Under the pieces are notes generated by a model. That model saw only the letters and a list, made by a program, of their open reading frames with translations, did not search any database and had not been told where the DNA came from. A stretch of DNA of 64,000 bases from NCBI RefSeq assembly GCF_000316625.1, contig NC_019676.1, forward strand, positions 5,288,501 through 5,352,500, read 5' to 3'. Of this stretch, positions 10,318-32,823 are shown one piece after another (position 1 is the stretch's first letter; the number at the start of each line of letters is the position of its first letter). The stretch comes from Nostoc sp. PCC 7107. GTDB taxonomy: Bacteria; Cyanobacteriota; Cyanobacteriia; Cyanobacteriales; Nostocaceae. The position numbers were made by a program, and so were the translations under genes.

Positions 10318-11649
10318 ATGATTAATACAGAGTATTTGTCACGCTTTTATAAAGCGTGTAACCCCAGCTACGCCCTCAACATGAGCGATCGGCTTGATCG
10401 GCAGTATTATATAGATTTCGCCAATGTACGTGGCTGCAAGATTGTCGAAGAATTACAACGTACAATCAGCCGTATTTCTCCCGATGAACCTACCTGTCAG
10501 TTATTTACAGGTCATATTGGCTGTGGTAAGTCTACAGAATTACAACGCCTCAAAGCAGAACTAGAAGCTGTAGGATTTCATGTAGTTTACTTTGAATCTA
10601 GTCAAGACTTAGATATGGCGGATATCGATGTCAGCGATATTTTGCTGAGTGTAGCTCGTCAAGTCAGCGCTAGTTTAGAAGCAATTAAGATCCAAGTTCA
10701 ACCACATTACTTTATCAATCTCTTCAAAGAAATTGGAGATTTTTTGCAAAGCCCCATAGAACTTTCTGGACAAGCAGAGTTGTCCTTGGGAATTGCGAAA
10801 ATTACAGCCAAAACCAAAGATAGCGCCCAGGTAAGAAATCAACTCAGGCAATATTTAGAACCACGTACTAATAGTATTTTGCAAGCAATTAACGAAGAGG
10901 TTCTAGAAAAAGCTATTGAACAACTTAAACTCAGAGGTCAAAAAGGTTTGGTTGTTATCGTTGATAATTTAGATCGAGTAGATATGCGTCCTTTAGCATC
11001 TGGGCGGACACAACCAGAATATCTATTCATCGACAGAGGTGAACAATTACGCCGCCTCAAATGCCACGTAGTCTACACTATTCCTCTAGCGTTAATTTTT
11101 TCTAATGAGTATGAAACACTCAAAAATCGCTTGGGTGGAGGTATTGCGCCTAAAGTATTACCAATGGTAAGAGTTAGACAAAGAGATAGTAGTGACTACG
11201 AACCAGGGATGTTACTACTGCGCCAGTTAGTTTTAGCCAGAGCATTTCCAGAAGTTTCCTATAACGAAAGGCTGTCGTTAATCACAGAATTATTTGAGCA
11301 TCATGAAACCCTCGACCGTTTATGTCGTGTGAGTGGCGGCCACATCCGTAACTTATTAGGATTGCTCTATAGCTGTCTGCAACGACAAGACCCTCCTTTT
11401 TCTGGGGACTGTTTAGAAGCAGTAATTAAAGACTACCGAGATGACTTGCTATTAGCTATTGATGAATACCAGTGGGAACTATTATTTGAGGTTGTACAAC
11501 AGCAGAGCGTAAAAGGAGAATCTGAGTATCAAAGCTTGCTGCGAAGTATGTATTTATTTGAATACCGTGATCCTGTTGGTCGTTGGTTTGGGATTAGTCC
11601 AGCATTAGCAGAGACAGAAAAAGTTATTGCTTGGCAGCAAAAAATATAA
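10318..11649 (+). CDS. P-loop ATPase, gene A of module 1
   Basis: 443-aa P-loop NTPase. Seen: Walker A GHIGCGKST at residues 65-73, Walker B LVVIVDNLDRVD at 211-222 (aspartate 216), a following strand HVVYTIPLAL like an AAA/KAP-type sensor 1, GGHIRNLLGL as a possible arginine/sensor region, and a C-terminal winged-helix-like tail (LFEYRDPVGRWFGISPAL). No membrane segment or signal peptide is seen. It is paralogous to the gene at 29909: same Walker motifs, same TIP/TVP strand, and same C-terminal FEYR/LEYR. In both places the next gene carries the same N-terminal domain, so the two proteins probably work as a pair. No effector motif (nuclease, protease, TIR) was found. Specific function unknown; probably a regulator or switch using ATP. 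Confidence 0.8.
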   Translation: MINTEYLSRFYKACNPSYALNMSDRLDRQYYIDFANVRGCKIVEELQRTISRISPDEPTCQLFTGHIGCGKSTELQRLKAELEAVGFHVVYFESSQDLDMADIDVSDILLSVARQVSASLEAIKIQVQPHYFINLFKEIGDFLQSPIELSGQAELSLGIAKITAKTKDSAQVRNQLRQYLEPRTNSILQAINEEVLEKAIEQLKLRGQKGLVVIVDNLDRVDMRPLASGRTQPEYLFIDRGEQLRRLKCHVVYTIPLALIFSNEYETLKNRLGGGIAPKVLPMVRVRQRDSSDYEPGMLLLRQLVLARAFPEVSYNERLSLITELFEHHETLDRLCRVSGGHIRNLLGLLYSCLQRQDPPFSGDCLEAVIKDYRDDLLLAIDEYQWELLFEVVQQQSVKGESEYQSLLRSMYLFEYRDPVGRWFGISPALAETEKVIAWQQKI

Positions 11650-11682
11650 TCGTACTGAGTGAGTTAATAGTTCTTAGCATCA

Positions 11683-11713
11683 GTCATTAGTCCATCTTCA
11701 TTTGACTAATGAC
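11683..11713 (+). repeat. Hairpin between module genes A and B
   Basis: GTCATTAGTC at 11683-11692 pairs perfectly with GACTAATGAC at 11704-11713 around eleven bases. There is no T run after it, so it is not a standard terminator. It could tune expression of the downstream gene or be a repeat remnant. Confidence 0.5.
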
Positions 11714-11765
11714 TAATTTATAATGAGCAATTTTTTCTGTTGAGGCTGTATTCCGGTTTTGAGAT

Positions 11766-14700
11766 ATGACCAAATCCCCATTCACAGTAGATAGTGTTAA
11801 TCATAATAATAATTCTCTGCAAAGGTTAGTGCGCTCAATCAAGCTTTCTAAGGATCAATTTGCTCTTATTCTTGTGCGATGTAACTATCAGCAATTAAGA
11901 GAGCAAATGTTAGAAAATATTCGCTCTCTGACAAAAGATATAAACTTACAGGAAATCTATCTCCAACCAGCGACTAAAGCTTTACATACAACAATCATTA
12001 CAAAACTAAGTCTAGATCATCCTGCCGTAATTACAGATTCTCCACCATCAGCGGTGATGGTCTTTGGTTTAGAGTCAATTCTGGCGCTGGAAGACTTATT
12101 AACTAGTCTTAATCAAGCGAGAGATATCTATACAGCAACCTTTCCTTTTCCTGTGGTGTTGTGGCTACAAGATGAAGTGGCAACAATGCTGACAAAACTA
12201 GCACCCGATTTCAAAAGTTGGGCGGCAACTACTATCAAGTTTGAATTGTCAAAAGAAGATTTAATTGCCTTAATACGTCAAGAGACAGAATCACTGTTTG
12301 CTAAATTTTTAGAAGCAGGTGCAGAAAAATTTTTATCTAATGCTGCTCTTAATTTAGCACCTAAATCTCAACATCGTCACGAAATTGAGTCTGCTCGTAA
12401 TGATTTATTACGTCTGTATAGTGTTCAACTAGAGCCAGGGTTAGAAGCTAGTTTAGAATTTGTTTTAGGACGAGATAAATATGCAAATGACCAAATTAAT
12501 AGTGCATTAGCTCATTATCAAAGAAGCTTAAGTTTATGGCAGAGAGAGGCTAAACGAGAGAATGAAATAGTTCAAAAAATAGAAGTTTCTGAGGAAAAAA
12601 ATGAACATATTTATGCGTATCGCATTCGACAGGCAATAGTCTTATTTCATGTAGGTTTATGTTATCGCCGAATGGCTGACTTACATCAAATCACTAATAG
12701 TCACTATTGTCAACATGCCCTTTCATGGTTTCAGAGATGTTTAGATTTATTAGAACAATTACAAAGGCAAGATTTAGTAGCAAAATTTATTTTGCCTGTT
12801 TGTGAAATGCTGCAACGTTTAAAATATTTAGACGAGCTAGAAGTATTAGCACAAAAGTCTTTACATCTACATGAAATGTATGGTAATACTGCTAAAGTAG
12901 CACAAGATTATGGTTTTTTAGCAGATGTAGCAGCATCACGTAATAATTGGGTGTTGGCTCATGAGTTAGCAAATACCGCACTTTCTATTGCCGAATTAGC
13001 AACAGAAGTTTCTCGACAACAAGAAAGCTGGTATCTTTTATTGCTGGCTCGGACTCAGAAACATCTAGGGCAATGGGAAGAAGCAATTAGTAATTTAGAA
13101 TGGGCCAGGGTGGTTTGTGAACTACAGTATGAACCATCGCTATATTTAGAAATATTAGAAGAATTGCGATCGCTGTACTTATTTGAGCGCCATGATTATG
13201 CAGAAGCATTCAATCTCAAGCAAGAAAAAGTTCAAATAGAACACCAATATGGCTTTCGTGTATTTATTGGAGCCAGTCAATTACAGCCAAAACGTTACAG
13301 AATTAACCCTGTTTTAGAAACCCAAAAAATTTCATTTATTCCAGAAGATATTGCTCAAGAAATAGCGGCTTCTGGACGGTTGCAAGATGTTAACCGTTTA
13401 ATTGAAAGAATTACCCGCGCTGATCATAAATTAACGATCATACATGGACAATCAGGAGTTGGTAAAAGTTCAACTATTAAGGCAGGTTTAGTACCTGCTT
13501 TAAAGGGAAGAGTTATTGGTGAAAGAATTCCTTTACCAATTGTTTTATCAGGATATACAGATTGGGTAACAGCTTTGGGACGTAGTATCAACCAAACTTT
13601 AGCACAATCAGAATTACCAATTGCTGTAGAATTTACACCTACTATCCTTATAGAAAAGCTACGTTTAGCAACTGAATATAATCATATAATAGTTATTGTA
13701 TTTGACCAGTTTGAAGAATTTTTCTTTACCAGTAACTCCAGCCAAAGATTAGAATTTTATAAATTTTTTATTGCTTGTCTTAATATTCCTTATGTAAAAA
13801 TAATTCTTGCCTTAAGAGAAGATTATTTACATTATTTATTGGAATTTGAACGTTTTAGTAAAGAAAATAATGATTATTTATATGATTTAGGTGTAATTAA
13901 TAAAAATATTCTCGATAAAGATATTCGTTATTTTTTAGGTAAATTTTCTATAGAAGATACGAGAGGAATTATTTACAGTTTTACAAAACGCTCCCACTAT
14001 GAAATGAGTGATGAATTAATTCATCAGCTAGTCCAGGATTTAGCTGGAGAATCAGGAGAAGTAAATCCAATCGAATTACAAATAGTTGGAGTGCAGTTAC
14101 AAGCAGAAAATATTACTACACTCGAACAATATAAAAATTGTGGTAGTTCAGCAAAGCTGGTCGAGCGCTGGCTTGAGGAAGTGATCAAAGATTGTGGCGA
14201 AGAAAATGAAGATTTAAGTTGGCAATTACTATTTGAACTCACTGATGAAAAAGGCTTTCGTCCCCTCAAGACTAAATCTGATTTAGCCATTGCTTTAGGA
14301 AAGAATATCCATACAACATCTGGCACACAATCAGACTGGGAGCTAATTCTCGAAATTTTAGTCGGTTCAGGTTTAATATTGCGCTTGCGTGAAGAATTAG
14401 GCGATCGCTATCAATTAGTCCATGATTATTTGGTAGAGCCAATTCGCCAGAAAAATAGTTATGGCATAGTTGCTGAACTCGAAAAAGTCAAATCTGAAAA
14501 AAAACGTGCAGAAGTCGCCCAAAAGCTTTCTCAAGAACATCTTAATTTAATTTTGCAACGGCGGTTGCGCGAAGCACGTATAGCAGGTGTGGTATTGGCA
14601 ATTATGGGCGGAACTATTGCAGCCTTATGGTGGCAAGCCGATTTGCAAAAAAGAGCCGCAATTCGCCAAACAATTCGCGCCGAACGTAGTGAAACTAATT

Positions 14701-16772
14701 TAAAAATTAGTGCGATCGCCGCAACAAGTGAAGCTTTATTTGCTTCTAACAAAGAGTTTGATGCCCTTTTAGAAGGTTTACGCGCCTGGAGAAAATTGAA
14801 GCAGGCAGACGAAGTACTACCAGAAACTCGAATGCGTGTAGTCACTGCTTTACAACAGGCAGTCTATGGAGTGTCGGAGTTAAATCGTTTGGAAGGACAC
14901 ACTGATATTGTTTGGGGTGTCGCTTTTAGTCCCGATGGCAAATTATTGGCTTCAGGTAGCCGCGATCAAACCGTGAAACTTTGGCGATCTGATGGAACTT
15001 TGCTACAAACCCTGAAAGGTCATACTGAGTCAGTCACCAGCGTGAGTTTTAGCCCCGATGGTCAAAGTCTCGCATCTTCCAGCCTCGATAAAACTGTACA
15101 AATCTGGCAGAGAAACCCAATTACGGGCGAATTTGATTTACAACCAGCCAAAACTATAGTAGATCGAGGCTGGGTTTATTGCGTAAGTTATAGTCCCGAT
15201 GGAGAATTGCTGGCGACAGGCAATAAAGATGCCACAGTCAAACTTTGGCGTAAGGATGGTACTTTAGTCAAAGTTCTTAAAGGACATCAAGGGTGGGTGA
15301 ATTGGGTCAGCTTTAGCCCTGATGGTCAATTGATTGCTTCAGCTAGTGATGATCGCACAGTAAAAATCTGGCGGCGGGATGGCACTTTAGTCAAAACACT
15401 TTCTGGACATCAGCAGGGTGTAACTGTTGTGACTTTTAGTCCTGATGGGCAAATGATTGCATCAGCAGGTAGAGATAAAATTATCAAATTGTGGCAGCTA
15501 CAGCCAAATAGTGACAATAATTTTGACTTTCAAGCTTATAAAAATTTAGAGCAGCATACCAGCACAATTTGGAGCTTGAGTTTCAGCATCGATGGACAAA
15601 GGTTAGCGTCAGGAAGTGATGACAATACAGTCAACCTCTGGAGTAGCACTGGCACATTACTCAAAACCTTTAAAGGTCATAGTGATGCGGTGGCCAGTGT
15701 GGCTTTTAGCCCAGATAACAAAATATTGGCATCAGGAAGTTATGACAAAAGCGTCAAAATCTGGAGTTTGGATGCACCAATATTACCCGTTCTGCGGGGG
15801 CATCAAGATAGAGTTTTGAGTGTGGCGTGGAGTCCTGATGGGCAGATGTTGGCTTCTGGTAGCCGCGATCGCACCGTGAAACTCTGGCAAAGAGAAACAA
15901 TTCATGGCGAAGCTACCACCCGACTTTACAAAACTTTAGTAGGGCATACAGATAAAGTTCCGAGTGTGAGTTTTGACCCCTTCGGTGAACTTCTGGCATC
16001 AGGCAGTTATGACAAAACAGTCAAAATTTGGCGGCGGGATGGCACTTTACTCAAGACCTTACAAGGACATACTGATAGTGTGATGAGTGTCAGTTTTAGT
16101 CCTGATGGCCAGTTATTAGCATCAGCCAGTAAAGACAAAACAATTAAACTGTGGAGTCGTGACGGTCAATTACTCACAACCTTGGTAGGACACCAAGGTT
16201 GGGTGAACAGCGTTAATTTTAGTCCTGATAGCCAGCTGCTTGCCTCTGCTAGTGATGATCAAACAGTCAAACTTTGGCGACGGGATGGTACTTTGATCAA
16301 AACGTTTTCACCCCATGACAGTTGGGTATTGGGTGTTAGCTTCAGCCCAACTGACCAATTAATCGCTTCTGCTAGTTGGGATAACACCGTGAGACTATGG
16401 CGGCGCGATGGTACGTTGTTAAAAACGTTGTTAAAAGGCTACAGCGATAGTGTTAATTCTGTGACTTTCAACCCCAATGGTGAATTACTGGCGGCAGCTA
16501 GTTGGGACAGCACAGTCAAACTGTGGAGCCGTGATGGCAAGTTAATTAAAACTCTCAATGGACATCGCGCCCCAGTCTTGAGTGTGAGTTTTAGCCCTGA
16601 TGGTCATACATTAGCATCGGCAAGTGATGACAACACAATCATTTTGTGGAATTTGCATTTGGAAGACTTGCTGCTGCGTGGTTGTAACTGGGCAGACAAT
16701 TACCTCAGTCACAACCACAATGTTGAAGAACGCGATCGCTTTTTGTGTGATGGCATTAGTCACGGGCAGTAA
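11766..16772 (+). CDS. STAND NTPase with 14 WD40 repeats, gene B of module 1
   Basis: 1668-aa multidomain protein. Residues 15-190 form an N-terminal domain shared with the protein at 31198, looking like an NTPase fold without a Walker A (LILVRC..., VMVFGLESI, FPFPVVLWLQDEV, LAPDFKSW). Residues about 190-500 are helical, TPR-like. A STAND NTPase follows: Walker A GQSGVGKSS at 561-569, Walker B VIVFDQFEEFF with D647, then the GESGEVNPIELQIVG region. One hydrophobic segment lies at about 940-957 (AGVVLAIMGGTIAALWW). From about 1038 to 1645 there are 14 WD40 repeats, enough for two seven-bladed propellers. STAND proteins are ATP-dependent switches that respond to ligand binding by the repeats. 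No CHAT, TIR or caspase effector is visible. Expressed with the ATPase 116 bases upstream. Confidence 0.85.
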   Translation: MTKSPFTVDSVNHNNNSLQRLVRSIKLSKDQFALILVRCNYQQLREQMLENIRSLTKDINLQEIYLQPATKALHTTIITKLSLDHPAVITDSPPSAVMVFGLESILALEDLLTSLNQARDIYTATFPFPVVLWLQDEVATMLTKLAPDFKSWAATTIKFELSKEDLIALIRQETESLFAKFLEAGAEKFLSNAALNLAPKSQHRHEIESARNDLLRLYSVQLEPGLEASLEFVLGRDKYANDQINSALAHYQRSLSLWQREAKRENEIVQKIEVSEEKNEHIYAYRIRQAIVLFHVGLCYRRMADLHQITNSHYCQHALSWFQRCLDLLEQLQRQDLVAKFILPVCEMLQRLKYLDELEVLAQKSLHLHEMYGNTAKVAQDYGFLADVAASRNNWVLAHELANTALSIAELATEVSRQQESWYLLLLARTQKHLGQWEEAISNLEWARVVCELQYEPSLYLEILEELRSLYLFERHDYAEAFNLKQEKVQIEHQYGFRVFIGASQLQPKRYRINPVLETQKISFIPEDIAQEIAASGRLQDVNRLIERITRADHKLTIIHGQSGVGKSSTIKAGLVPALKGRVIGERIPLPIVLSGYTDWVTALGRSINQTLAQSELPIAVEFTPTILIEKLRLATEYNHIIVIVFDQFEEFFFTSNSSQRLEFYKFFIACLNIPYVKIILALREDYLHYLLEFERFSKENNDYLYDLGVINKNILDKDIRYFLGKFSIEDTRGIIYSFTKRSHYEMSDELIHQLVQDLAGESGEVNPIELQIVGVQLQAENITTLEQYKNCGSSAKLVERWLEEVIKDCGEENEDLSWQLLFELTDEKGFRPLKTKSDLAIALGKNIHTTSGTQSDWELILEILVGSGLILRLREELGDRYQLVHDYLVEPIRQKNSYGIVAELEKVKSEKKRAEVAQKLSQEHLNLILQRRLREARIAGVVLAIMGGTIAALWWQADLQKRAAIRQTIRAERSETNLKISAIAATSEALFASNKEFDALLEGLRAWRKLKQADEVLPETRMRVVTALQQAVYGVSELNRLEGHTDIVWGVAFSPDGKLLASGSRDQTVKLWRSDGTLLQTLKGHTESVTSVSFSPDGQSLASSSLDKTVQIWQRNPITGEFDLQPAKTIVDRGWVYCVSYSPDGELLATGNKDATVKLWRKDGTLVKVLKGHQGWVNWVSFSPDGQLIASASDDRTVKIWRRDGTLVKTLSGHQQGVTVVTFSPDGQMIASAGRDKIIKLWQLQPNSDNNFDFQAYKNLEQHTSTIWSLSFSIDGQRLASGSDDNTVNLWSSTGTLLKTFKGHSDAVASVAFSPDNKILASGSYDKSVKIWSLDAPILPVLRGHQDRVLSVAWSPDGQMLASGSRDRTVKLWQRETIHGEATTRLYKTLVGHTDKVPSVSFDPFGELLASGSYDKTVKIWRRDGTLLKTLQGHTDSVMSVSFSPDGQLLASASKDKTIKLWSRDGQLLTTLVGHQGWVNSVNFSPDSQLLASASDDQTVKLWRRDGTLIKTFSPHDSWVLGVSFSPTDQLIASASWDNTVRLWRRDGTLLKTLLKGYSDSVNSVTFNPNGELLAAASWDSTVKLWSRDGKLIKTLNGHRAPVLSVSFSPDGHTLASASDDNTIILWNLHLEDLLLRGCNWADNYLSHNHNVEERDRFLCDGISHGQ

Positions 16773-16816
16773 AGATTTGAATTGATCAAACCAAGCGCGA
16801 TCGCTTTGCAAATTTT

Positions 16817-17131
16817 TTAATCACTGTTTTCTTTCGTCACCTCTGGTAGCAAATTTCCAAGAAAAGCTTTGATTCTCATCCTCTCAATGTAAGGCCAGCC
16901 ACCCTCAGACTCAATATCTTTCAGTAGTGAGTAAAGTTGCTGGCGATTATCGGGCAGACTCTCCTGAAAAACACCATCCCGAATTGCTCGATGTAAATAC
17001 TCCAACTGCCGTAGCAAGTTTAAAAGAGCGAGTGGATCTCCTTGGCAATCCCTCGCTACATCATTCACTGCTGAGGCAATTTTTTCCAATTCCTCAGAAA
17101 AATCTGTCGATTCAAAACTTTTGTTGCTCAT
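16817..17131 (-). CDS. Conserved-looking small hypothetical
   Basis: 104-aa acidic helical protein ending ...GNLLPEVTKENSD, convergent with the WD40 gene. ATG 17131 is preferred (GAGAG just upstream) over an in-frame TTG at 17164. It contains LLNLLRQLEYLHRAIRDG and GGWPYIERMRIKAFL. I do not recognise the family. No membrane segment. The gap to the WD40 gene is 44 bases and holds a HIP1 palindrome. Confidence 0.65.
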   Translation of the reverse strand: MSNKSFESTDFSEELEKIASAVNDVARDCQGDPLALLNLLRQLEYLHRAIRDGVFQESLPDNRQQLYSLLKDIESEGGWPYIERMRIKAFLGNLLPEVTKENSD

Positions 17132-17777
17132 GCAACTCTCTCTGTCAAAATTAGGTCTACTCAAATTTACCGAAGATTGTGAGCTTTCAGGCGCGATCGC
17201 CAGTGGTTAATACATAATCCTTACATTCACAAATATCAAGCTTCTGTAAGCTTCTGGGAGTTGCTCATGGCTGATTTTGAAGTATTTGCTACTACTATTC
17301 GTTTTCACTGTCTCAGAGGAACTTAGTCAGCCTAGTTCAAAATCTCCTTTTTGCCAGATTAGTCTCACAAATAATTTTGTGAACTCAGTACAAATCAAAA
17401 GCAATAGCAATCTCTCGCAAAAGAGAGTGGTGGCTTTGATTACAGCCTCCTAGGAAGCTAGATAGGATCAAAGACTTCCTACTTTAAACTAGAGTGCTTT
17501 GATTTTGAGTTAAAAAAAATCGTATGATCTGGCTGATTTCCCTATAAAGCAATGGGCTGTATGTAGTGGCAATACATACATAATACAGAAAGGCTTCCAA
17601 AACCCTGCAAATGCCTACGGTATTTACAAGGTGTGAAGCCTGACGTTAAAAGCATCAACGACAGCAAGCCTAGCCTTTGGGAAAAGCTGGCTGTCAGTGA
17701 ATACAGCTTTTCGTCAGAGATCAAAACTTCGTGCAGTTTTACAACTTAGATATTAATTTTTGACATTGAGGTTGACC
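17132..17777. other. Intergenic upstream of psbO
   Basis: 646 bases. Contains the alternating CTTTGAT/ATCAAAG region at 17391-17507 (listed separately) and the psbO leader. GAGG at 17768-17771 is the psbO ribosome site. A 60-codon minus-strand frame at 17542-17724 is not supported. Confidence 0.5.
17391..17507 (+). promoter_or_regulatory. Possible structured leader or small RNA upstream of psbO
   Basis: Four alternating complementary blocks: ATCAAAAGC (17394), GCTTTGAT (17433), ATCAAAG (17467) and GCTTTGAT (17496). The first and third can each pair with the second or the fourth, giving mutually exclusive stems. A CTCTC/GAGAG hairpin lies between blocks one and two. It could be a leader RNA or an independent small RNA; no conserved RNA family was recognised and orientation is assumed from psbO. 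Confidence 0.35.
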
Positions 17778-18611
17778 ATGAGGTATCGCGCTTTAATTGT
17801 TGCATTCTTGGCTTTATGTCTGGGGCTATTAACTGCTTGTAGTGATGCTCCAGAGTCTAGTAGTAGAGATGTACTAACCTACGAACAAATTCGTGGGACT
17901 GGCTTGGCTAACAAATGCCCTCAATTGGCAGAAACAAGCCGTGGCTCCATTCCCATTGATGGTAGCCAGTCATACAGCATCAAAGAACTCTGCTTAGAAC
18001 CAACTAATTTCTTTGTCAAAGAAGAACCAGCTAATAAACGGCAAACAGCCGAATTTGTAGCTGGAAAACTGTTAACTAGATACACTTCCACCATTGACCA
18101 AGTGCAAGGGCCACTAAAGTTTAACTCAGACGGTAGCTTGACTTTTGTTGAAGAAGATGGTTTGGACTTCCAAGCCATAACAGTTCAACTTCCTGGTGGT
18201 GAGCGAGTACCTTTCCTCTTCACCATTAAAGACTTAGTTGCTCAAACACAATCTGGTTTAACCAGTATCAATACTTCTACTGACTTTGAAGGTGAATTTA
18301 AAGTGCCTTCTTATCGTGGTGCTGCCTTCCTAGATCCCAAAGGTCGTGGTATCGTTAGTGGTTATGACAACGCTGTTGCTCTTCCTGCTCAAGCAGATGA
18401 TGAAGAACTCACCCGTGCTAATGTCAAGCGTGCTGAAATTCTGAAAGGCAAAATTTCTCTGCAAGTAGCCAAAATAGATAACTCTAGTGGTGAAATTGCT
18501 GGCACATTTGAAAGTGAACAGCCATCTGATACTGACTTGGGAGCCGGTGAACCCAAGGAAGTGAAGATTCGCGGTTTGTTTTACGCCAGAGTTGAACCAA
18601 CTCGTTCTTAA
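17778..18611 (+). CDS. psbO: Photosystem II manganese-stabilising protein PsbO
   Basis: Lumenal extrinsic subunit that stabilises the Mn4CaO5 water-oxidising cluster. Start at ATG 17778 (MRYRALIVAF), with GAGG just upstream; the TTG at 17760 would only add six residues. 277 aa, normal length. Seen: a signal peptide ending in a lipobox L18-T19-A20-C21, suggesting a lipid-anchored form; the conserved start LTYEQIRGTGLANKCP; the second cysteine in KELCLEP that makes the family disulfide; and the GRGIVSGYDNAVALP motif. It is followed by a strong terminator and, after a 646-base gap, by sigF on the same strand. Confidence 0.97.
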   Translation: MRYRALIVAFLALCLGLLTACSDAPESSSRDVLTYEQIRGTGLANKCPQLAETSRGSIPIDGSQSYSIKELCLEPTNFFVKEEPANKRQTAEFVAGKLLTRYTSTIDQVQGPLKFNSDGSLTFVEEDGLDFQAITVQLPGGERVPFLFTIKDLVAQTQSGLTSINTSTDFEGEFKVPSYRGAAFLDPKGRGIVSGYDNAVALPAQADDEELTRANVKRAEILKGKISLQVAKIDNSSGEIAGTFESEQPSDTDLGAGEPKEVKIRGLFYARVEPTRS

Positions 18612-19257
18612 ACTCAGCACATTCTGGCATTTAAGTATCACAATTTTGAGCCATTAGGCTTGATCACAAAATTTCATATCAGTCTTTAGGGAATGGATAG
18701 GTGAATTTTGAACTAAATTGACCTAAATGGCAACATATTTCACTATAAAAGGGCGATCAGCCCTTTTTTTATTGTTTTAGCAAAAAAGTAAACTTTTCCT
18801 CTGTTTAATTAATTACTATAAATTCTTCAATTGTACATAATCTGTGTTTACGCTTAGTTACTGAACAATTTTTAAAATCATATTAATTATTTGCTCTGAA
18901 TACAGTATCTTCACTGATAATAAAATTTTTATTCATGCAGCAAAATCATAAGAGATACACTTCATATTTGATTAAATAAATTAAGTACAATCTCGGTTTT
19001 AAATTAAGTAAATTATTTCATATTTTGTTTATATGTAGTTTAAATCAGCTACAGCTAATACCAAATCACAATAAATAAAAAACAATTTCGTTTATTTAAA
19101 TATTGCTCGATTATTAAAATTTTCATAGTGATAGCAATGCAGTATGACAGAGGAAACCTCTGGTTAATATAGCAGGCTATGTGCTGTGAAATTTTGTAAT
19201 CTTAGCTTGTTTAAAAGTGCCTAATTAACTGTTTATTTGCTAAATAAACGCGGTGCT
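18612..19257. other. Intergenic psbO to sigF
   Basis: 646 very AT-rich bases. Contains the psbO terminator (18747-18770) and then the presumed long leader of sigF. No ORF or RNA gene recognised. Confidence 0.45.
18747..18770 (+). terminator. psbO intrinsic terminator
   Basis: AAAAGGGC pairs perfectly with GCCCTTTT around GATCA and runs into further T. Confidence 0.9.
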
Positions 19258-20034: not shown

Positions 20035-20198
20035 ATTTAAGCAAAATAAAACCGTATTTTTACTGGTTTAATTATGCTAAGAAAAACCCTTAAAATTTAA
20101 TAGTTTAGGTTATAAAAGGAAAATACTTTGTCTGAAATAAAAACAGGCTGTGTAGATTTTCCCAAGCAAATTTTTCCTATAGCTTTTGAGAACGGCTA

Positions 20199-21068: not shown

Positions 21069-21070
21069 GG

Positions 21071-25129: not shown

Positions 25130-25238
25130 ACACCTGCTTCACATAACTGTGTTAAAAATCTTGAGAATTTCAAAAATTTGTCTGAATTTGCAGTAAGCTC
25201 ATCTTGAATTGTAGTGTGATTTAACAGGAAACTTTACC

Positions 25239-25382
25239 ATGTCTACTGAATTTTTGCCTCACATTTTGGCTTATTCTGCATCGTACTTGTCTCCTATCTT
25301 TGTTCCCATCATTGGTTGGGTTTTACCAATTGCAACATTCTCGTTTCTTTTGGTATACATTGAACGCGATGACATTGCTTAA
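25239..25382 (+). CDS. psaI: Photosystem I subunit VIII, PsaI
   Basis: 47-aa single-span membrane protein of photosystem I that helps assemble PsaL and the trimer or tetramer. The sequence reads MSTEFLPHILAYSASYLSP, then a hydrophobic helix IFVPIIGWVLPIATFSFLLVYIE and the typical end RDDIA. ACAGGAAAC upstream serves as ribosome site. It is convergent with psbJ and shares the terminator at 25481-25514. Confidence 0.92.
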   Translation: MSTEFLPHILAYSASYLSPIFVPIIGWVLPIATFSFLLVYIERDDIA

Positions 25383-25480
25383 TTAGGTATTTAGTAATCA
25401 GTAATTGGCTACTGCAATTTTTACCAATTATTTATTACTAACTTCCAATTCACCAGATTGTGAAGTCAATTAATGATTAT

Positions 25481-25518
25481 AAAACCGTCTGACTCCTAGA
25501 GTCAGACGGTTTTTTTGT
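25481..25518. terminator. Shared bidirectional terminator, psaI and psbEFLJ
   Basis: AAAACCGTCTGACTC pairs with GAGTCAGACGGTTTT around three bases, flanked by T on the plus side and by A (T on the minus side), so it can stop both convergent transcripts. Confidence 0.85.
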
Positions 25519-25580
25519 ACTGTTTTCTAAACAAGTGCTAGAAAATTCAGTCAATATATATTATTAGGTTCAAACCGCTT

Positions 25581-25703
25581 TTATAGCGAAGAACCGATTC
25601 CAGCGTAGGCTCCGTAGAAGAAGATACCTACAACCGTAATGACACCTAAACCTGCGATTGTAGCTACAACCCACAGGGGAATTCTTCCAGTTCCAGAAGA
25701 CAC
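25581..25703 (-). CDS. psbJ: Photosystem II protein PsbJ
   Basis: 40-aa single-span photosystem II subunit near the QB site, involved in electron flow and assembly. It starts with GTG at 25703, preceded by an excellent AGGAGG. It reads [20 protein letters not shown] and ends [10 protein letters not shown]. Last gene of the psbEFLJ operon. Confidence 0.95.
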
Positions 25704-25775
25704 AGTTTTTCCTCCTCCCTTAATAAAAATCAACTCAGATTTTAGATAAACAAAGTTTCACAAAAACAGTTCCAG

Positions 25776-25895
25776 TTAGTTAAAGAAGTAACTGGAAAAG
25801 AGAATACCGAGAACAAAGATCAGTAGCAATCCCAGGTATAAAGAAGTACGGTTGAGTTCAACCGGCTGATTATTAGTATTGGGCGTTCTTTCCAT
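25776..25895 (-). CDS. psbL: Photosystem II protein PsbL
   Basis: 39-aa single-span subunit at the photosystem II dimer interface. It begins [20 protein letters not shown] and ends FSSYFFN, both characteristic of the family. An AGGAGC ribosome site precedes ATG 25895. Nine bases separate it from psbF. Confidence 0.95.
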
Positions 25896-25904
25896 GATTT
25901 GCTC

Positions 25905-26042
25905 CTAGCGTTGAATAAATTGCATTGCGGCGATCGCGCCTAAGAAAAACACGGTTGGCACACCTAAAGTATGAACTGCCAGCCATCTAACTGTAAAAAT
26001 TGGATAGGTAACTGGTTGATTGATGTTATTTCCGCTAGTCAT
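25905..26042 (-). CDS. psbF: Cytochrome b559 beta subunit
   Basis: 45-aa single-span protein that ligates the haem of cytochrome b559 together with PsbE. The haem-binding histidine is H24 in [12 protein letters not shown]. It ends AMQFIQR as usual. It follows psbE by nine bases in one operon. Confidence 0.95.
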
Positions 26043-26051
26043 GATCTCAAA

Positions 26052-26300
26052 CTACTTTCCGATAAATTTTTCAACTTGCTGTTTGGCTTCATAACGATTC
26101 TTCACAATTGGCACTTCTTGCCGTGTTTGTGTGTAATATTCGTTAGGGCGAGGTGTGCCAAATACATCATAAGCCAGCCCAGTGCTAACAAATAGCCAGC
26201 CTGCAATAAATAATGCTGGGATGGTGATGCTGTGAATTACCCAATAACGAATGCTGGTAATAATGTCCGAAAACGGACGCTCTCCAGTGGTACCTGACAT
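26052..26300 (-). CDS. psbE: Cytochrome b559 alpha subunit
   Basis: 82-aa photosystem II core subunit. The haem ligand is H23 in [14 protein letters not shown], followed by one membrane helix and a lumenal tail ([13 protein letters not shown]). First gene of psbEFLJ; ycf48 lies 120 bases upstream on the same strand, the conserved cyanobacterial order rubredoxin-ycf48-psbEFLJ. Confidence 0.97.
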
Positions 26301-26420
26301 TTAGATCCCTACCTTCACAAAGACTGTTATTGAGTTTATTATCCTACAAAGTTTAGAAAGAGTTACAAGTTGCAACGCACTTCTCATAAATCAGCGTGAA
26401 CACCTAAACTTTCGCTAGGT

Positions 26421-27443
26421 CTAAGCGGCTTTTTGGAGAGTAGCTTTTTCGGCATTGGCGTTATATTTCAGCAATACACCGCGATCGCCAATAATAAATC
26501 CTTGATCTGGCTTGAGAAACACTATCTTATATAGATTAGCGGCTACCTGCTCCACGTCCCGGTCTTTCTCCCAGGTTTTGCCACCATCAGTACTCCGCAG
26601 CAAATTACCGCTACCGCCGCCTATCCATAGTTCTTCCGGTGTGCGATATGCCAAATCCAGTAAACCCCAACTTGTGGATAACTCTGGATATACAGCTTCT
26701 TGCCATTCTTCGGCGTTATTGGGTTCGCTAAATTGAATTTGACCACCCCGTGCTAATAACCACAGTTGGCCATTGTTATTGAAACCCATGTTTTCTACCC
26801 GCCGAGAACTATTACGGTTATGGGGAACCCACGCATTTTGTCCTGGTTCCCAAGTTGAGTAAAAGCTACCCTTGGCGGAAACAGCGACATATTTGCCATC
26901 AGCAGAACGTTGCATATTGCGAACTACGCCGACGGCTGCTTCTACTTGAGCTTTCCAATTTTTACCACCATCGATGGTTTTGTAAATTGCGCCTACATCA
27001 GTAGCCATTTCCGCTGAGTCAGACCCCAGGGCGTGAACAGTTATGGGATTACCTGGTAACTTTTCGCTCAAGGGAATCCGTGACCAAGAACGGCCTTCAT
27101 CGGTGGTATGTAGTAAAAGAGAGGGTTCGCCGACAATCCAGCCTTCTTCCCCAGAAAAACTTACGGAATCAAAACGATACCGAGAATCATCCAGTGCCAA
27201 AGACAAAGGTTGCCAATTTTTACCACCGTCTTTGGTTTCTAAAAGCGTGGCGTTGCTTCCTACTAAAAAACCATGTTGAGAATCTTGAGTAAAAGCAATA
27301 TCCAGCAACTTTTCGTTGCTTGGTACAGCAATGATTTCCCAAGGGTTGAAGCTAGTGGAAGGCACTTTGCTACAACCGATACACAAAACAATTACTATCA
27401 AAAAGGCAATTATGCGTTGCCAGCTTTTCACAATGGACTGCAT
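26421..27443 (-). CDS. ycf48: Photosystem II assembly factor Ycf48/HCF136
   Basis: 340-aa lumenal seven-bladed propeller that assists D1 insertion and early photosystem II assembly. Seen: a signal peptide with lipobox ending I22-G23-C24, and repeated Asp-box-like motifs (KDGGKNW, DEGRSW, IDGGKNW, TDGGKTW), one per blade. Length is normal. It lies between rubredoxin and psbE on the same strand. Confidence 0.96.
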   Translation of the reverse strand: MQSIVKSWQRIIAFLIVIVLCIGCSKVPSTSFNPWEIIAVPSNEKLLDIAFTQDSQHGFLVGSNATLLETKDGGKNWQPLSLALDDSRYRFDSVSFSGEEGWIVGEPSLLLHTTDEGRSWSRIPLSEKLPGNPITVHALGSDSAEMATDVGAIYKTIDGGKNWKAQVEAAVGVVRNMQRSADGKYVAVSAKGSFYSTWEPGQNAWVPHNRNSSRRVENMGFNNNGQLWLLARGGQIQFSEPNNAEEWQEAVYPELSTSWGLLDLAYRTPEELWIGGGSGNLLRSTDGGKTWEKDRDVEQVAANLYKIVFLKPDQGFIIGDRGVLLKYNANAEKATLQKAA

Positions 27444-27533
27444 CAGTATTTCTTAGTATTTTCTAAATTCGTTTAGGTTTTACCTTAAGAGTTGCGATCG
27501 CTCTCTAAATTAGGTAAAAAAAGATAGCGGGTC

Positions 27534-27869
27534 TTATTGTAAGCCGTAAAGACTGATAAAGAACAAGAAAGCCAGAGCTAAAGCCCCGAAAATCAAGATA
27601 TTCTTTTGCCCTGGAGTCAGCTTATTAACACCCAAACCAAAACCGAGATTTTCTTTAAAACCGGATGCTGTACCAGACGGGCCAATGTTGGCAAAAGCAG
27701 TTTTCTTAGCACTACAAACTGGACAACGCCAATTTATAGGCAGTTCTGTAAACAGTGTCCCGGAGGGGATATCATGCTTATCATCTCCCTTCTCAGGTTC
27801 ATAAACATAACCGCAGGCGCGACACTCATAGCGGTCTAACGCTGGAGTCTCAACAGCTTGTTCGCTCAT
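27534..27869 (-). CDS. rub: Membrane-anchored rubredoxin
   Basis: 111-aa rubredoxin needed for photosystem assembly. Start chosen at ATG 27869 (MSEQAVETPALDRY) with GGGAG upstream; the longer frame to 27944 adds 25 unrelated residues. The iron is bound by C16-x2-C19 and C49-x2-C52. A linker leads to a C-terminal membrane helix (NILIFGALALAFLFFISLYG). First gene of the rubredoxin-ycf48-psbEFLJ cluster, divergent from ndhC. Confidence 0.95.
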   Translation of the reverse strand: MSEQAVETPALDRYECRACGYVYEPEKGDDKHDIPSGTLFTELPINWRCPVCSAKKTAFANIGPSGTASGFKENLGFGLGVNKLTPGQKNILIFGALALAFLFFISLYGLQ

Positions 27870-28064
27870 GGCTAGGGTCTCCCAGAGGGGAATTATTAAA
27901 TATACGTTAAAAATTATGACATAACTGTTAGACTTTTCTATCACTTACACAAACGAATCAAATACCTGAAATCCGTTTGTTTCCCAGATTTCAGAAAACT
28001 CGAAAAGATATAATGTAAAAGAAAGTAACAGCCTTATTTACACCATAAGCGGTAGAAATTCATT

Positions 28065-28427
28065 GTGTTTGTCCTCAGCGGTTACGAGTACTTTCTAGGC
28101 TTCTTAATTATCTGTAGCCTAGTGCCTGCCCTGGCGCTTTCTGCTTCCAAGCTTCTCAGACCCAGTGGTAACAGCCTGGAACGCCTCACCACATACGAAT
28201 CTGGGATGGAACCAATTGGGGGAGCCTGGATTCAGTTCAATATCCGCTACTACATGTTTGCGCTAGTTTTTGTCGTCTTTGACGTAGAAACTGTGTTTTT
28301 GTATCCTTGGGCGGTGGCTTTCCACCGTTTAGGGCTATTAGCATTCATCGAGGCGCTAATTTTTATTGCAATTCTTGTAGTTGCCTTAGTTTACGCATGG
28401 CGTAAAGGAGCTTTGGAATGGTCTTGA
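28065..28427 (+). CDS. ndhC: NAD(P)H dehydrogenase subunit NdhC
   Basis: 120-aa membrane subunit of the NDH-1 complex, homologous to NuoA. Three membrane helices; conserved [20 protein letters not shown] loop and [12 protein letters not shown]. The start is GTG 28065. The last ten bases overlap ndhK. Confidence 0.96.
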
Positions 28428-29152
28428 ATTCTGATTTAAGCACCCAAGACAAAGAGCGAATCATCAACCCGATTGAGCGTCCGACAGTCACTCAAGAACT
28501 TTCCGAAAATATTATCTTGACAACGGTTGATGACCTCTACAACTGGGCTAGGCTTTCAAGTCTTTGGCCTTTACTTTTTGGTACAGCTTGCTGCTTTATT
28601 GAGTTTGCAGCGTTAATTGGCTCTCGTTTTGACTTTGACCGCTTTGGGTTAATTCCCCGTTCTAGTCCTCGTCAAGCTGACTTGATTATTACAGCCGGCA
28701 CAATCACCATGAAGATGGCACCCCAGTTGGTGCGTCTTTATGAACAAATGCCTGAGCCGAAGTATGTGATTGCAATGGGCGCTTGTACAATTACTGGCGG
28801 GATGTTCAGCGTGGATTCTCCCACTGCTGTACGCGGAGTTGATAAATTGATTCCGGTGGATGTGTACTTGCCTGGTTGTCCTCCCCGTCCCGAAGCGATT
28901 ATTGATGCGATCATTAAGCTACGGAAGAAGATAGCTAATGATTCCATGCAGGAACGTGACCAATCCAAGCAAACCCACCGCTTTTACAGTACGACTCATA
29001 ACTTGAAGCCAGTAGCAGAAATTTTAACTGGCAAGTATATGCAGTCAGAAACTCGCTTCACGCCACCAAAAGAATTGACAGAAGCAATTGGTCTACCAGT
29101 ACCACCTGCGCTGCTAACTTCCAAAACCAAGGAGGAACAAAGCCGTGGCTGA
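28418..29152 (+). CDS. ndhK: NAD(P)H dehydrogenase subunit NdhK
   Basis: 244-aa NuoB homologue carrying the terminal [4Fe-4S] cluster N2 of NDH-1. The ligands are C58, C59, C123 and C154 ([21 protein letters not shown]). It overlaps ndhC by ten bases and ndhJ by eight, so translation is coupled. The C-terminal extension after residue 175 is typical of cyanobacteria. Confidence 0.97.
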
Positions 29153-29672
29153 TGAAGAAACTAAACCAGTACCAGCAGGGGCAGATGCTTTAGTTCCATC
29201 TGGGCCAATTTCTCAGTGGTTAGCAGAAAATGGCTTTGATCATGAATCTTTAGCCCCTGATAAAAATGGGGTAGAGATTATTAAAGTGGGGCCAGAATTT
29301 TTGCTTCCCATTGCTACGGCTTTGTATGCTTATGGGTTTAATTATCTCCAGTTTCAAGCTGGTATTGACCTTGGCCCAGGACAGGATTTGGTCAGTGTGT
29401 ATCACTTAGTCAAAGTTGGTGATAATGCTGATAGACCAGAAGAAGTGCGAGTGAAGGTATTCTTGCCACGAGAAAATCCTAGTGTGCCTTCAGTATATTG
29501 GATTTGGAAAACCGCCGACTGGCAAGAACGGGAAACCTACGATATGTTGGGCATTATCTACGAAGGACATCCTAACCTGAAGCGGATTTTGATGCCGGAA
29601 GATTGGGTGGGTTGGCCTTTGCGGAAAGATTACATCTCGCCTGATTTTTACGAGTTGCAAGACGCTTATTAA
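29145..29672 (+). CDS. ndhJ: NAD(P)H dehydrogenase subunit NdhJ
   Basis: 175-aa NuoC homologue of the NDH-1 peripheral arm. The family signature is [29 protein letters not shown] followed by PLRKDY. GGAGGAAC lies just upstream of the GTG start, inside ndhK. Last gene of ndhCKJ; a G-C-rich hairpin with a T run follows at 29741. Confidence 0.96.
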
Positions 29673-29674
29673 AA

Positions 29675-29709
29675 AGTGCTGAGTGCTAAGTGCTGAGTGC
29701 TGAGTGTCA
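29675..29709 (+). repeat. Heptanucleotide tandem repeat (AGTGCTG)
   Basis: About five consecutive seven-base units (AGTGCTG, AGTGCTA, AGTGCTG twice, then AGTGTCA). Short tandem heptamers of this kind are a known feature of heterocystous cyanobacterial genomes. Confidence 0.8.
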
Positions 29710-29740
29710 GCTAGTGGAGATTTTAATGTCTCATCTTTAA

Positions 29741-29776
29741 CCCCTCTCCGGCGGCGGAGGGGGGTAATGTTTTTTT
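29741..29776 (+). terminator. Likely ndhCKJ terminator
   Basis: CCCCTCTCC pairs with GGAGGGGGG (one G-U) around GGCGGC, followed by TAATG and a run of seven T. Confidence 0.7.
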
Positions 29777-29908
29777 GGCGTTAATATGAAAGGAAGTAAT
29801 ATTTCCTTTTCCAGCAGAGATACGAAAAAATAAAGGAAAGATTTTTGAGTTGAAGCTAGGTAGGCAGTAACATAAATAGGCAGTAAAAATATTATTTTGT
29901 CAGAGCCA

Positions 29909-31195
29909 ATGTCTAACGAATTACAAGAATCTTTTAAACAAGCGTATGCCAATCTCGAATTATTTCCACTGCTAGAAAAGAAAGAAACAGAAAGTTTTAG
30001 AGTGGATTATGGTAATGATTCTATAGAAAAGTTAATTCAATACATTGAGTATAGTCCTAATGGTGATGCGAAGATTATCTTTACTGGACATACGGGATGT
30101 GGTAAATCGACTTTATTAGCTGAGTTAAGTAGACAAATTGAAGATAATTATTTTGTAGTGTTATTTTCTATTGCTGACAGTATTGAAAGGTCGGCTGTTG
30201 ATCATATTAATATCTTGTTTGCGATCGCGCTTAATTTAATGTCTGAAGCCGAAGCCCGCAAAGTAGAAATCCCTAAATCTACTAAAGAGCAAATCTATGG
30301 GTGGTTTGCGACTCGCACTCGGACTACAGAGACAGAGTTAGGAAGTGGGCTTGAATTGGGTTTTGATTTGCTCAAAGTTATTAAAGCCCAATTAAAAGCT
30401 GATGCTAAAGTTAGAGAAGAAATTACACAGGAATTTGAACGTAAAATATCTGATTTAGTCGCCCGAATTAATGAAATTGCAGCCTTGATTCAAGTTGCGA
30501 CTAAAAAAGAAACTATAGTCATTATTGATGACTTAGATAAACTAGATTTAGAAAGAGTCAATGAAATTTATGGAAACAATATTAAATCCCTCTTTCAACC
30601 TAATATTAGGATTATTTACACTGTCCCGATTGCGGTAATGTGTAACACTTTTCTCTGGAATATTATTAAGGCAGAAAGCAACTACCGAATTGTGGTGATG
30701 CCTGTTATCAAAATTTTTAGTAAGGGCGACAATCGCTTAATTGATGCCAAGCCTCGGACTGAAGCAAATAATATTTTATGTGAAATCTTACAAAAACGCA
30801 TTTCTAGTGAATTAATAGATAAGTCAGCCGCAGAAAAGATTGTTGTTTACAGTGGTGGAGTGCTGCGGGAGTTGATTCGTATAGCTAATGTATGCTGTCT
30901 GATTTGTTTACGGCTTATCAGGCAGACACCAGAAGCAAGAATTGTAATTGATAGCCAAGTTATAGAACAAGCAATTAAAGAAATTCGTAATGAACTTTCT
31001 CTGCGTTTAGGAAAAGAAGATTTTAAAATTTTGAAAACTATTTATGAAGATTTTGAACCTGACGATGTAAAGCAGTCGGAGTTTTTAGAATTACTGCATG
31101 GGTTGTTTATCTTGGAATATCGTAATGATGAAACTTGGTATGATGTACACCCCATTCTTGTAGAAACTTTGAGACGTAGGAGGTTGCTTAATTAA
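29909..31195 (+). CDS. P-loop ATPase, gene A of module 2
   Basis: 428-aa P-loop NTPase, paralogue of the gene at 10318. ATG 29909 is chosen; a TTG at 29897 adds four residues. Walker A GHTGCGKST at 60-68, Walker B IVIIDDLDKLD at about 203-213 with D207/D208, a following strand RIIYTVPIAV, then GGVLRELIRIANVC and a C-terminal winged-helix-like tail (LFILEYRNDETWYDVHPILVETL). The DDLD motif is KAP/STAND-like. The gap to the TPR gene is two bases, a tighter operon than in module 1. No membrane segment or effector motif was seen. The pairing with a B gene carrying the same N-terminal domain in both loci implies that A and B act together; what they do is unknown. Confidence 0.82.
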   Translation: MSNELQESFKQAYANLELFPLLEKKETESFRVDYGNDSIEKLIQYIEYSPNGDAKIIFTGHTGCGKSTLLAELSRQIEDNYFVVLFSIADSIERSAVDHINILFAIALNLMSEAEARKVEIPKSTKEQIYGWFATRTRTTETELGSGLELGFDLLKVIKAQLKADAKVREEITQEFERKISDLVARINEIAALIQVATKKETIVIIDDLDKLDLERVNEIYGNNIKSLFQPNIRIIYTVPIAVMCNTFLWNIIKAESNYRIVVMPVIKIFSKGDNRLIDAKPRTEANNILCEILQKRISSELIDKSAAEKIVVYSGGVLRELIRIANVCCLICLRLIRQTPEARIVIDSQVIEQAIKEIRNELSLRLGKEDFKILKTIYEDFEPDDVKQSEFLELLHGLFILEYRNDETWYDVHPILVETLRRRRLLN

Positions 31196-31197
31196 TT

Positions 31198-32823
31198 ATG
31201 AATGAAGACTTGCTGACAGATGATGAAAATAGAGAAGCTTATGAGTACTTAACTGTTTCTATTGAGGCTAAAGCAAATCGGTTGAATTTGCTAATAGGTG
31301 TTTGTGATGATGCTAGTTTTAGAGATGAACTTATTGCTCAGTATGAGGCAGAATTACAGTCGCAAATTCATTGTTATCGGGTGACATTGGCAAGGGGCGA
31401 ACCTAGTTTGAGGGCGGCTGTTGCTAAACTAGTGGAATCTGAAGAATATTTGCAGCAACATAACCCAGCAGTAATTAGCGTGACTGGTGCAGAACAGCTT
31501 CATTTTTTGAAACTGGGTGAGGAACGTTCAGAACAAGAGATTTTTTTCGGTTATTTGCAGTGGACTAGGGAAGGGTTAAGAGAATTTCCTTTTGCGATTG
31601 TCTTGTGGGTGACTAATCAAATATTGGTTGAATTAATTAAAAAAGCGCCTGATTTTTGGAGTTGGCGTAATGGTGTTTTTCGGTTTGCATCTACAAGGAA
31701 AAATACTGTTTCTGCTAAAGAATTAGAGCCGATTCGGTTTGCTTTTACAGGTAATGAATTATCAGGTTTTGATGATGACAATGATTATTTATTGCCTATA
31801 GAAGATTTACAAGGATTTATTCAAGATTTAGAACAGCGTGGTGTAAAAGATACAACGTTAGCGACTTTATACTTTAGCTTAGGCGATATTTATAGAAAAA
31901 GACTCAACCGGAGTGAGTGTCAAGATTATAAAAAAGAGCAAGAATTAGGCATTAAGTATTTAAATAAAGCTGTAGAATTGCAAAAAGAGTTAGGTTTAGA
32001 AAAAGACTTAGCCACCAGCCTCAACAATTTAGCCACACTCTACAATTCCCAAGGCAGATACAGCGAAGCCGAACCTTTGTACATTCAAGCATTAGTACTG
32101 TACCGCAAACTCCTGGGTGAAAAACATCCTTATGTAGCCACCAGCTTCAACAATTTAGCCGCACTCTACGAATCCCAAGGCAGATACAACGAAGCTGAAT
32201 CTTTGTACATTCAAACATTGGCACTGAGGCGCAAACTCCTGGGTGAAGAACATCCAGATATCGCACAAAGTCTCAACAATTTAGCCACACTCTACAATTC
32301 CCAAGGCAGATACAGCGAAGCCGAACCTTTGTACATTCAAGCATTAGTACTGTACCGCAAACTCCTGGGTGAAAAACATCCTTATGTAGCCACCAGCTTC
32401 AACAATTTAGCCGCACTCTACAAATCCCAAGGTAGATACAGCGAAGCCGAACCTTTGTACATTCAAACATTGGCACTGAGGCGCAAACTCCTGGGTGAAG
32501 AACATCCCGATGTCGCTGCCAGCCTCAACAATTTAGCAGGACTCTACGATTCCCAATGCAAATACAGTGAAGCCGAACCTTTGTACATCCAAGCATTGGC
32601 ACTGAGGCGCAAACTCATGGGTGAAGAACATCCGGATGTTGCCGCCAGCCTCAACAATTTAGCCGCACTCTACAAATCCCAAGGTAGATACAGCGAAGCC
32701 GAACCTTTGTACATTCAAGCTTTAGATATTTTAGAGAAACGGTTAGGGATAGATCATCCCAATACTGTTACTGTGCGTAAAAACTTAGCAAATTTGCGCG
32801 ATCGCCTGTCCTCAGAATCATAA
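31198..32823 (+). CDS. TPR sensor protein, gene B of module 2
   Basis: 541-aa protein. Residues 15-185 are the same N-terminal domain as in the WD40 protein at 11766: LLIGVCDDASFRDEL, AVISVTGAEQLHFL, FPFAIVLWVTNQI, APDFWSW, with no Walker A. Residues about 220-270 hold one TPR-like hairpin. Six 42-residue kinesin-light-chain-type TPRs run from residue 272 to about 523, then a partial one. Units one-two and three-four are a near-identical pair at the nucleotide level, so the array grew recently. There is no STAND domain, WD40 repeats or signal peptide. ATG 31198 starts two bases after the ATPase stop, so translation is probably coupled. Likely role: ligand or protein recognition by the TPRs, signalled through the ATPase; inference. 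Confidence 0.85.
   Translation: MNEDLLTDDENREAYEYLTVSIEAKANRLNLLIGVCDDASFRDELIAQYEAELQSQIHCYRVTLARGEPSLRAAVAKLVESEEYLQQHNPAVISVTGAEQLHFLKLGEERSEQEIFFGYLQWTREGLREFPFAIVLWVTNQILVELIKKAPDFWSWRNGVFRFASTRKNTVSAKELEPIRFAFTGNELSGFDDDNDYLLPIEDLQGFIQDLEQRGVKDTTLATLYFSLGDIYRKRLNRSECQDYKKEQELGIKYLNKAVELQKELGLEKDLATSLNNLATLYNSQGRYSEAEPLYIQALVLYRKLLGEKHPYVATSFNNLAALYESQGRYNEAESLYIQTLALRRKLLGEEHPDIAQSLNNLATLYNSQGRYSEAEPLYIQALVLYRKLLGEKHPYVATSFNNLAALYKSQGRYSEAEPLYIQTLALRRKLLGEEHPDVAASLNNLAGLYDSQCKYSEAEPLYIQALALRRKLMGEEHPDVAASLNNLAALYKSQGRYSEAEPLYIQALDILEKRLGIDHPNTVTVRKNLANLRDRLSSES
32011..32766 (+). repeat. Six 126-base TPR repeats with a 252-base duplication
   Basis: Units start at 32011, 32137, 32263, 32389, 32515 and 32641. 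The two-unit block 32011-32262 is almost identical to 32263-32514, seen in repeated ALVLYRKLLGEKHPYV and TLALRRKLLGEEHPD. This points to one recent duplication of two units. Confidence 0.9.

Follow-up and report, generated by a model that had tools for sequence, protein, structure and literature searches.

The 64,000-nucleotide stretch analysed here (the window; Nostoc sp. PCC 7107, NC_019676.1, positions 5,288,501 to 5,352,500) carries two gene pairs, A1-B1 and A2-B2, in which a predicted ATPase gene (A) is followed by a gene (B) whose product opens with a shared N-terminal domain, named BN here. All four open reading frames (ORFs) had been recognised in an initial annotation of this DNA and were found where it had placed them; the nSTAND1 NTPase and the 14 WD40 repeats of B1 were likewise borne out by Pfam and repeat analysis. 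The same genome contains a third pair (A3-B3) outside the window, at position 2418488, and two further BN genes without A, one encoding a single-domain protein of 165 residues and the other a BN-TPR protein whose BN is divergent. The features of the window, numbered from its first letter, are listed below.

10318..11649, + strand: A1, predicted Orc/Cdc6-STAND-type ATPase, the conserved copy (443 aa)
11766..16772, + strand: B1, with BN, degenerate TPR, nSTAND1, a predicted transmembrane segment and 14 WD40 repeats (1668 aa)
11781..12305, + strand: BN domain of B1 (residues 6-180), predicted inactive AAA+ core (BLASTP, profile)
13341..14534, + strand: nSTAND1 NTPase of B1 (residues 526-923; Pfam PF20703, 1.2e-28, and custom profile)
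14574..14630, + strand: predicted membrane segment of B1 (residues 937-955), directly after nSTAND1 (hydropathy scan only)
14889..16682, + strand: 14 WD40 repeats of B1 (Pfam, custom profile, repeat analysis)
29909..31195, + strand: A2, same ATPase family, swapped among genomes as deep allele lineages (428 aa)
31198..32823, + strand: B2, with BN and an array of 42-residue TPRs (541 aa)
31201..31743, + strand: BN domain of B2 (residues 2-182), predicted AAA+ fold (AlphaFold2 pLDDT 83.9)
32009..32812, + strand: tandem 126-nt repeats encoding the TPR array of B2 (identity of the copies to the reference one, 73-92%)
29740..31220, + strand: approximate exchange unit, comprising the A2 upstream region, the whole of A2 and the first B2 codons (identity profiles; B2 codons 1-3, 6 and 7 segregate with the A2 lineage)

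An alternative TTG start of A2 is possible at 29897. B1 and B2 had been described as diverging fully after BN; this proved too strong, as B1, too, has TPRs, in degenerate form, between its BN and its nSTAND1 (TPR_12, E 6.9e-9).

A Conserved Two-Gene Module

A and BN form a real, widespread and conserved two-gene bacterial module. A1 and A2 are homologues that align along most of their length (24% identity, 428 columns, BLASTP E 1e-25), and the BN domains of B1 and B2 align over approximately their first 165 residues (21% identity, 164 columns, E 3e-8). A profile built from these two BN sequences recovered 77 ORFs at E<=0.01 from the 2062 ORFs of a neighbourhood set, which consists of the window, one other stretch of the same genome and 80 stretches of related genomes hand-picked from lists of relatives.

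When the partner is taken as the first downstream ORF of at least 150 aa on the same strand, the 85 A ORFs of the neighbourhood set have 82 distinct downstream ORFs, 77 of which carry BN at or near the N-terminus. The remaining five are glyS (locus L043), an ORF without assignment (L063), a Clp-type ATPase (L048), a second A (L052) and a 496-aa ORF (L091). In the last of these loci (L091, 2500-4460), BN is shortened to 60 aa and is followed by the 496-aa ORF, which has no Pfam match.

Across 98 evenly sampled genomes of the phylum, among them the one analysed here (thresholds E<=1e-3 for BN and E<=1e-8 for A), BN occurs in at least 27 and A in at least 27 genomes, both being lower bounds since first-look candidates were partly scored in many genomes. 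BN lies within 1.5 kb downstream in 82 of 95 A rows, and A lies upstream in 82 of 116 BN rows, fragments and four A matches that are weak and partial being counted among these rows. In named records (the best 80 of at least 94 loci), BN follows A in 68, and 3 of the other 12 stop at or near a contig end. The pair is also present in six of seven non-cyanobacterial loci (two Anaerolineae of the Chloroflexota, three archaea, one Clostridiales and one Acidobacteria), with BN scores that are weak in some of them, down to 1e-4. The three sets share genomes and are not independent. Counted in these ways, A and B are conserved neighbours, as the initial annotation had proposed, and the pair is probably a switch. 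Failure of the two BN domains to align by profile, or rarity of A-B adjacency, would have spoken against the module, and neither was observed. No published description of it was recognised in the open-access literature, judging by titles, abstract openings and passages, and BN is undescribed in the libraries searched.

Predicted Structure of the ATPase and the BN Domain

The A protein is predicted by modelling to be an intact Orc/Cdc6-STAND-type ATPase. Its Walker A, Walker B and sensor residues, including the sensor-2 arginine, are conserved across the family, Arg297 and Arg320 are invariant, and a winged helix is predicted at the C-terminus. The fold model, built on A2, resembles Orc/Cdc6, TnsC, an archaeal ATPase and the CED-4/Apaf-1 ATPases, with 9-15% identity among the structural matches listed. 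The KAP NTPase family (PF07693) scores 31.2 and 32.9 bits against a curated cut-off of 20, yet only about 165 of its 293 positions are covered. nSTAND2 is absent from the complete Pfam matches of A1 up to E<=1 and from the best 25 of 32 matches of A2; a genome search with PF20702 (nSTAND2) gave no match, as was also the case in the control genomes. PADLOC models yielded no full-length match to A, only weak partial ones such as PDC-S20, mad8 and VakA.

For BN, no Pfam family was found. The model of the B2 domain predicts a minimal AAA+ core in which the lid is missing; in its sequence the Walker A motif is absent and Arg124 is invariant. Single-domain BN proteins of about 160-170 aa, with no A neighbour, occur at 1632215-1632697 of the genome (L009, 1471-1968) and at eight loci of related genomes (L294-L301). 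Such proteins could act as free regulators of A.

Variable Modules of the B Proteins

The C-terminal modules of B vary, in line with what had been suggested from two examples. They comprise TPR, TPR+nSTAND1, TPR+nSTAND1+WD40, NACHT+TPR (proteins of up to 2433 aa), TPR+DUF3727 (L105) and nSTAND1+HEAT+AsnC-type combinations, and BN stands alone downstream of A in L051, L067 and L079. Custom profiles placed 31 of 77 B proteins in the nSTAND1 class (21 of these with at least four WD40 matches) and left 46 without nSTAND1. Pfam analysis of 29 B proteins, among which that of L133 is included by its position alone, found TPRs nearly throughout, and nSTAND1 with or without WD40. The initial annotation had seen no killing domain, and among the Pfam matches listed for these 29 proteins there is no nuclease, peptidase, TIR or other such domain, nor a GT4 or HEPN effector.

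A membrane-like segment was detected by hydropathy scan in 20 of the 21 WD40-class proteins, behind the nSTAND1 match in 18 of the 21 by manual count; the scan is crude, as it also fires within nSTAND1 and in 14 of the 46 proteins without nSTAND1, mostly within BN. One B protein (L119, 2725-6414) carries at its end HEAT repeats together with two ligand-binding stretches of AsnC type, which suggests a small-molecule sensor.

The TPR array of B2 differs in copy number among orthologues, and its repeats are more alike in DNA within an array (identity 0.784) than between arrays (0.674). Positions 2, 9, 12 and 13 of the repeat, which we take to be the ligand positions, are diversified in the B2 class, with a ratio of nonsynonymous to synonymous polymorphism (pN/pS) of 1.20 versus 0.34 elsewhere. 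Because the motif NN[LMI][AG] served to delimit the repeats, positions 5-8 are constant in part by construction. Arrays of 42-residue TPRs also occur in proteins encoded at 1.217, 1.238 and 5.902 Mb of the genome and at three more places (L273-L275, L277, L278, L282); these arrays are hypervariable at the same positions as B2, and some of the proteins look NB-ARC-like by eye.

Exchange of A2 at the ndhJ-A2-B2 Locus

A2 is preceded by ndhJ (Complex1_30kDa). According to the initial annotation, the sensor end of the system is exchanged while the ATPase core stays. This stands as a description of deep divergence and fails in the short term at A2-B2, where the exchanged unit is the ATPase gene together with its upstream region, swapped like an allele between species and genera as deep lineages of about 65% identity, with BN departing far less.

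Nine congeners have A2 at this locus, and its lineages in them disregard relatedness. Genomes G000, G005 and G008 have A2 in common at 96-97% and G002, G004 and G007 at 97-98%; between G000 and G004, the synonymous divergence (dS) is 1.51 for A2 (protein identity 65%) versus 0.20 for ndhJ, 0.13 for A1 and 0.28 for the BN of B2 (BN2). A1 is 93-99% identical within the genus. Identity profiles drop between ndhJ and A2 and recover at the A2/B2 junction, with B2 residues 1-3, 6 and 7 marking the exchange boundary, and some A2 genes look mosaic (G000 versus G009).

Trees of 24 syntenic loci from eight genera, the genera being designated by codes, point the same way. For ndhJ, the window's genus is kept together (96/97), as is genus g51 (96/97). 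For A2, a single clade of the window's genus is rejected with a log-likelihood difference of 790.6 (approximately unbiased test, p 4e-6); for BN2 it is also rejected, far less strongly (difference 53.7, p 0.002). The nearest A2 relatives cross genera in the pairs G010-G307 (92%), G176-G002 (93%) and G157-G000 (88%). In G157, BN2 too is placed with the window's genus, so the exchange there may have reached beyond A2. Of the 11 genomes of the genus, two have no intact A2, and a broken A2 is found in L104.

Neutral recombination at a permissive locus, with A-B as an ordinary signalling pair, could have produced the A2 pattern, and we regard this as possible but rather doubtful. It is favoured by the median dN/dS of A2, which at 0.155 is still purifying (0.035 for A1 and 0.075 for ndhJ), and by BN2, which weakly departs from the genus grouping too. 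It is disfavoured by the flanks a few hundred bases away and by the A1 copy, which show the pattern far less or not at all. Judged from these patterns of evolution, A2-B2 appears to evolve like a recognition locus and A1-B1 like conserved signalling.

Plasmid Copies and Links to Conflict Systems

On plasmid p057_J of Nostoc sp. C057 (L302, 7351-10275), a SAV_2336-related protein has an A domain (E 1.4e-106) as its C-terminal part. The gene for this fusion adjoins MoxR and VMAP genes, near an XcyI-family restriction gene. Passages of a published account of MoxR-vWA systems (eLife 2020, PMC7159879) describe a vWA component with C-terminal effectors; the fusion occupies the place of this component in that layout, and Pfam found no vWA domain in the fused protein. 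This single case links the A family to conflict systems. SAV_2336-fused A as a recurrent class was rejected, since its close relatives (16 matches in 15 of 291 genomes of the order) lie in frames of 344-468 aa, which are too short.

Complete pairs, with A followed by BN+nSTAND1+14 WD40, are present on two other Nostoc plasmids (L303, UHCC 0302, and L304, ATCC 53789), and A-B pairs are thus not confined to chromosomes. In total, 5 of 72,556 plasmid records contain an A2 relative, all less than 60% identical, and 2 of the 5 have a complete pair. A mobile or phage origin was discarded, as 50,697 phage records contain no A1 relative; a pattern scan of viral contigs returned 49 stretches with no relative among them.

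These data bear on the idea that A-B pairs are conflict systems, directed against phages or other elements, which arrest the cell through proteins encoded elsewhere in the genome. We consider it a minority possibility. The plasmid pairs, the fusion beside MoxR and VMAP, the exchange of deep A2 lineages across genera, the loss or breakage of A2 in two of 11 genomes of the genus, and a combination of repeat modules and NTPases that fits the vocabulary of published conflict systems all speak for it. However, the Pfam matches listed for the 29 B proteins contain no effector domain, A has no full-length PADLOC match, A1 evolves under strong purifying selection, relatives are missing from the phage and viral data just described, and the VMAP-side fusion was found once.

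A Proposed Sensor-Gated Switch

The reading that we prefer, and to which we give about an even chance, is that each A-B pair is a two-subunit ATP-driven switch, that is, a sensor-gated ATPase with a pseudo-AAA+ docking domain. In this model, A would be the working Orc/Cdc6-STAND-type ATPase with its C-terminal winged helix, and the catalytically dead BN at the N-terminus of B would dock onto it as a pseudo-subunit. The C-terminal repeats of B may bind a ligand, either in a TPR groove or through TPR and nSTAND1, probably membrane-tethered, with a WD40 propeller. A ligand bound to B would then alter the hold of BN on A, switching the ATP-dependent assembly of A or its winged-helix contacts; the direction of this regulation and its output are conjectural in the same degree as the contact itself. 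What the sequences show is the pairing, the complete motifs of A, the absence of Walker A from BN, the exchange of modules and the diversified ligand positions of the TPRs, the two folds being predictions. We infer that A2-B2 recognises something variable, and that A1-B1 and A3-B3 would be conserved signalling copies.

Several observations weigh against this model. A is missing upstream in 34 of the 116 BN rows, recurrent single-domain BN proteins among them, which indicates that BN does not always require an adjacent A. A natural A-BN fusion was sought among 4380 ORFs, where 183 contain A, 175 contain BN and none contains both. Strict 1:1 pairing fits two loci and is violated by three loci with one A and two BN genes, the two tandem loci being possibly not independent of each other; the pairing is therefore not strict. 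In the nine congeners the BN2 core was not found to coevolve with the A2 lineage; only B2 residues 1-3, 6 and 7 separate the lineages. Finally, sensor hypervariability special to B2 is ruled out by six control arrays of 42-residue TPRs from the same genome, in which pN/pS is likewise 1.20 at positions 2, 9, 12 and 13 (0.45 at the rest). The hypervariability thus marks a ligand-binding surface and is not a special property of A2-B2. In the B2 class, position 13 alone gives 0.70, and high values also occur at positions 31 and 41, which do not belong to the four named above.

A kin or self/non-self recognition role of A2-B2, with specificity set by the ATPase alleles, is quite improbable: we know of no incompatibility phenotype, the sample holds one genome per species, two of 11 genomes of the genus are without intact A2, and recombination between relatives alone could give the pattern. 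Its attraction lies in deep A2 lineages that coexist at one locus within the genus and cross genera where ndhJ keeps genera together, and in the repeat-number polymorphism and diversified TPRs that passages of a paper on fungal HET NLR proteins report (PMC4986451).

An extended form of the switch reading would make A-BN an undescribed ancient heteromeric AAA+ switch and A2-B2, its fast copy, a bacterial recognition locus maintained by balancing selection, where the ATPase is traded across genera and bears the exchangeable specificity in place of the sensor. This form we hold to be unlikely.

Comparison with Known Systems

The switch model has a close parallel in the nSTAND2 two-gene system, in which, according to parts of the published description (eLife 2021, PMC8195603), adjacent genes encode one intact and one eroded STAND-type NTPase, the inactive partner bearing variable effectors, most often GT4 or HEPN. 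The likeness of BN to the eroded partner is by predicted fold, and A1 differs in that Pfam lists no nSTAND2 for it up to E<=1. Among the matches listed for B, the modules are TPR, WD40 and NTPase rather than GT4 or HEPN, and BN is predicted to be minimal and lidless. A conserved arginine finger is described there in both proteins; the invariant Arg124 of BN and Arg297 and Arg320 of A are candidate counterparts by sequence.

The iSTAND and VMAP MoxR-vWA ternary systems, as portrayed in passages of PMC7159879, are similar in containing an inactive P-loop NTPase component (iSTAND), in their modularity and in being common in multicellular cyanobacteria. They have three components instead of two, and no MoxR or vWA gene is present among the scanned neighbours of the two window pairs; the SAV_2336-related protein to which one A domain is fused, as noted, belongs to a locus of this kind. 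Fungal NLR/HET proteins with TPR or WD repeats share, in the sections of PMC4986451 concerned, repeat-number polymorphism, high internal repeat identity and diversified repeat positions. They are single chains with an N-terminal effector, whereas here the ATPase has its own gene and is itself exchanged. Orc/Cdc6, TnsC, the archaeal ATPase and CED-4/Apaf-1 resemble A in predicted fold, motif set and winged helix, and differ from it in partner and gene context.

Recognition of BN, a domain without a Pfam family, and of its A partner allows many cyanobacterial WD40 and TPR proteins to be tied to a partner gene. The natural swaps of A2 alleles at a fixed position open a direct experimental route to what such switches recognise, and may help to find what filamentous cyanobacteria recognise with A2-B2.

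Neighbouring Genes

The 186-aa ORF at 7761-8321 gave no match. The scanned neighbours of the window pairs encode FtsQ, FtsZ, SpoU, EPSP synthase, NdhK, NdhJ and a manganese-stabilising protein, together with one ORF without a match. Immediately upstream of A, both Anaerolineae loci have a MraZ gene (L133, 4660-5100, Pfam 1.4e-15; L134, 995-1432, 6.8e-25).
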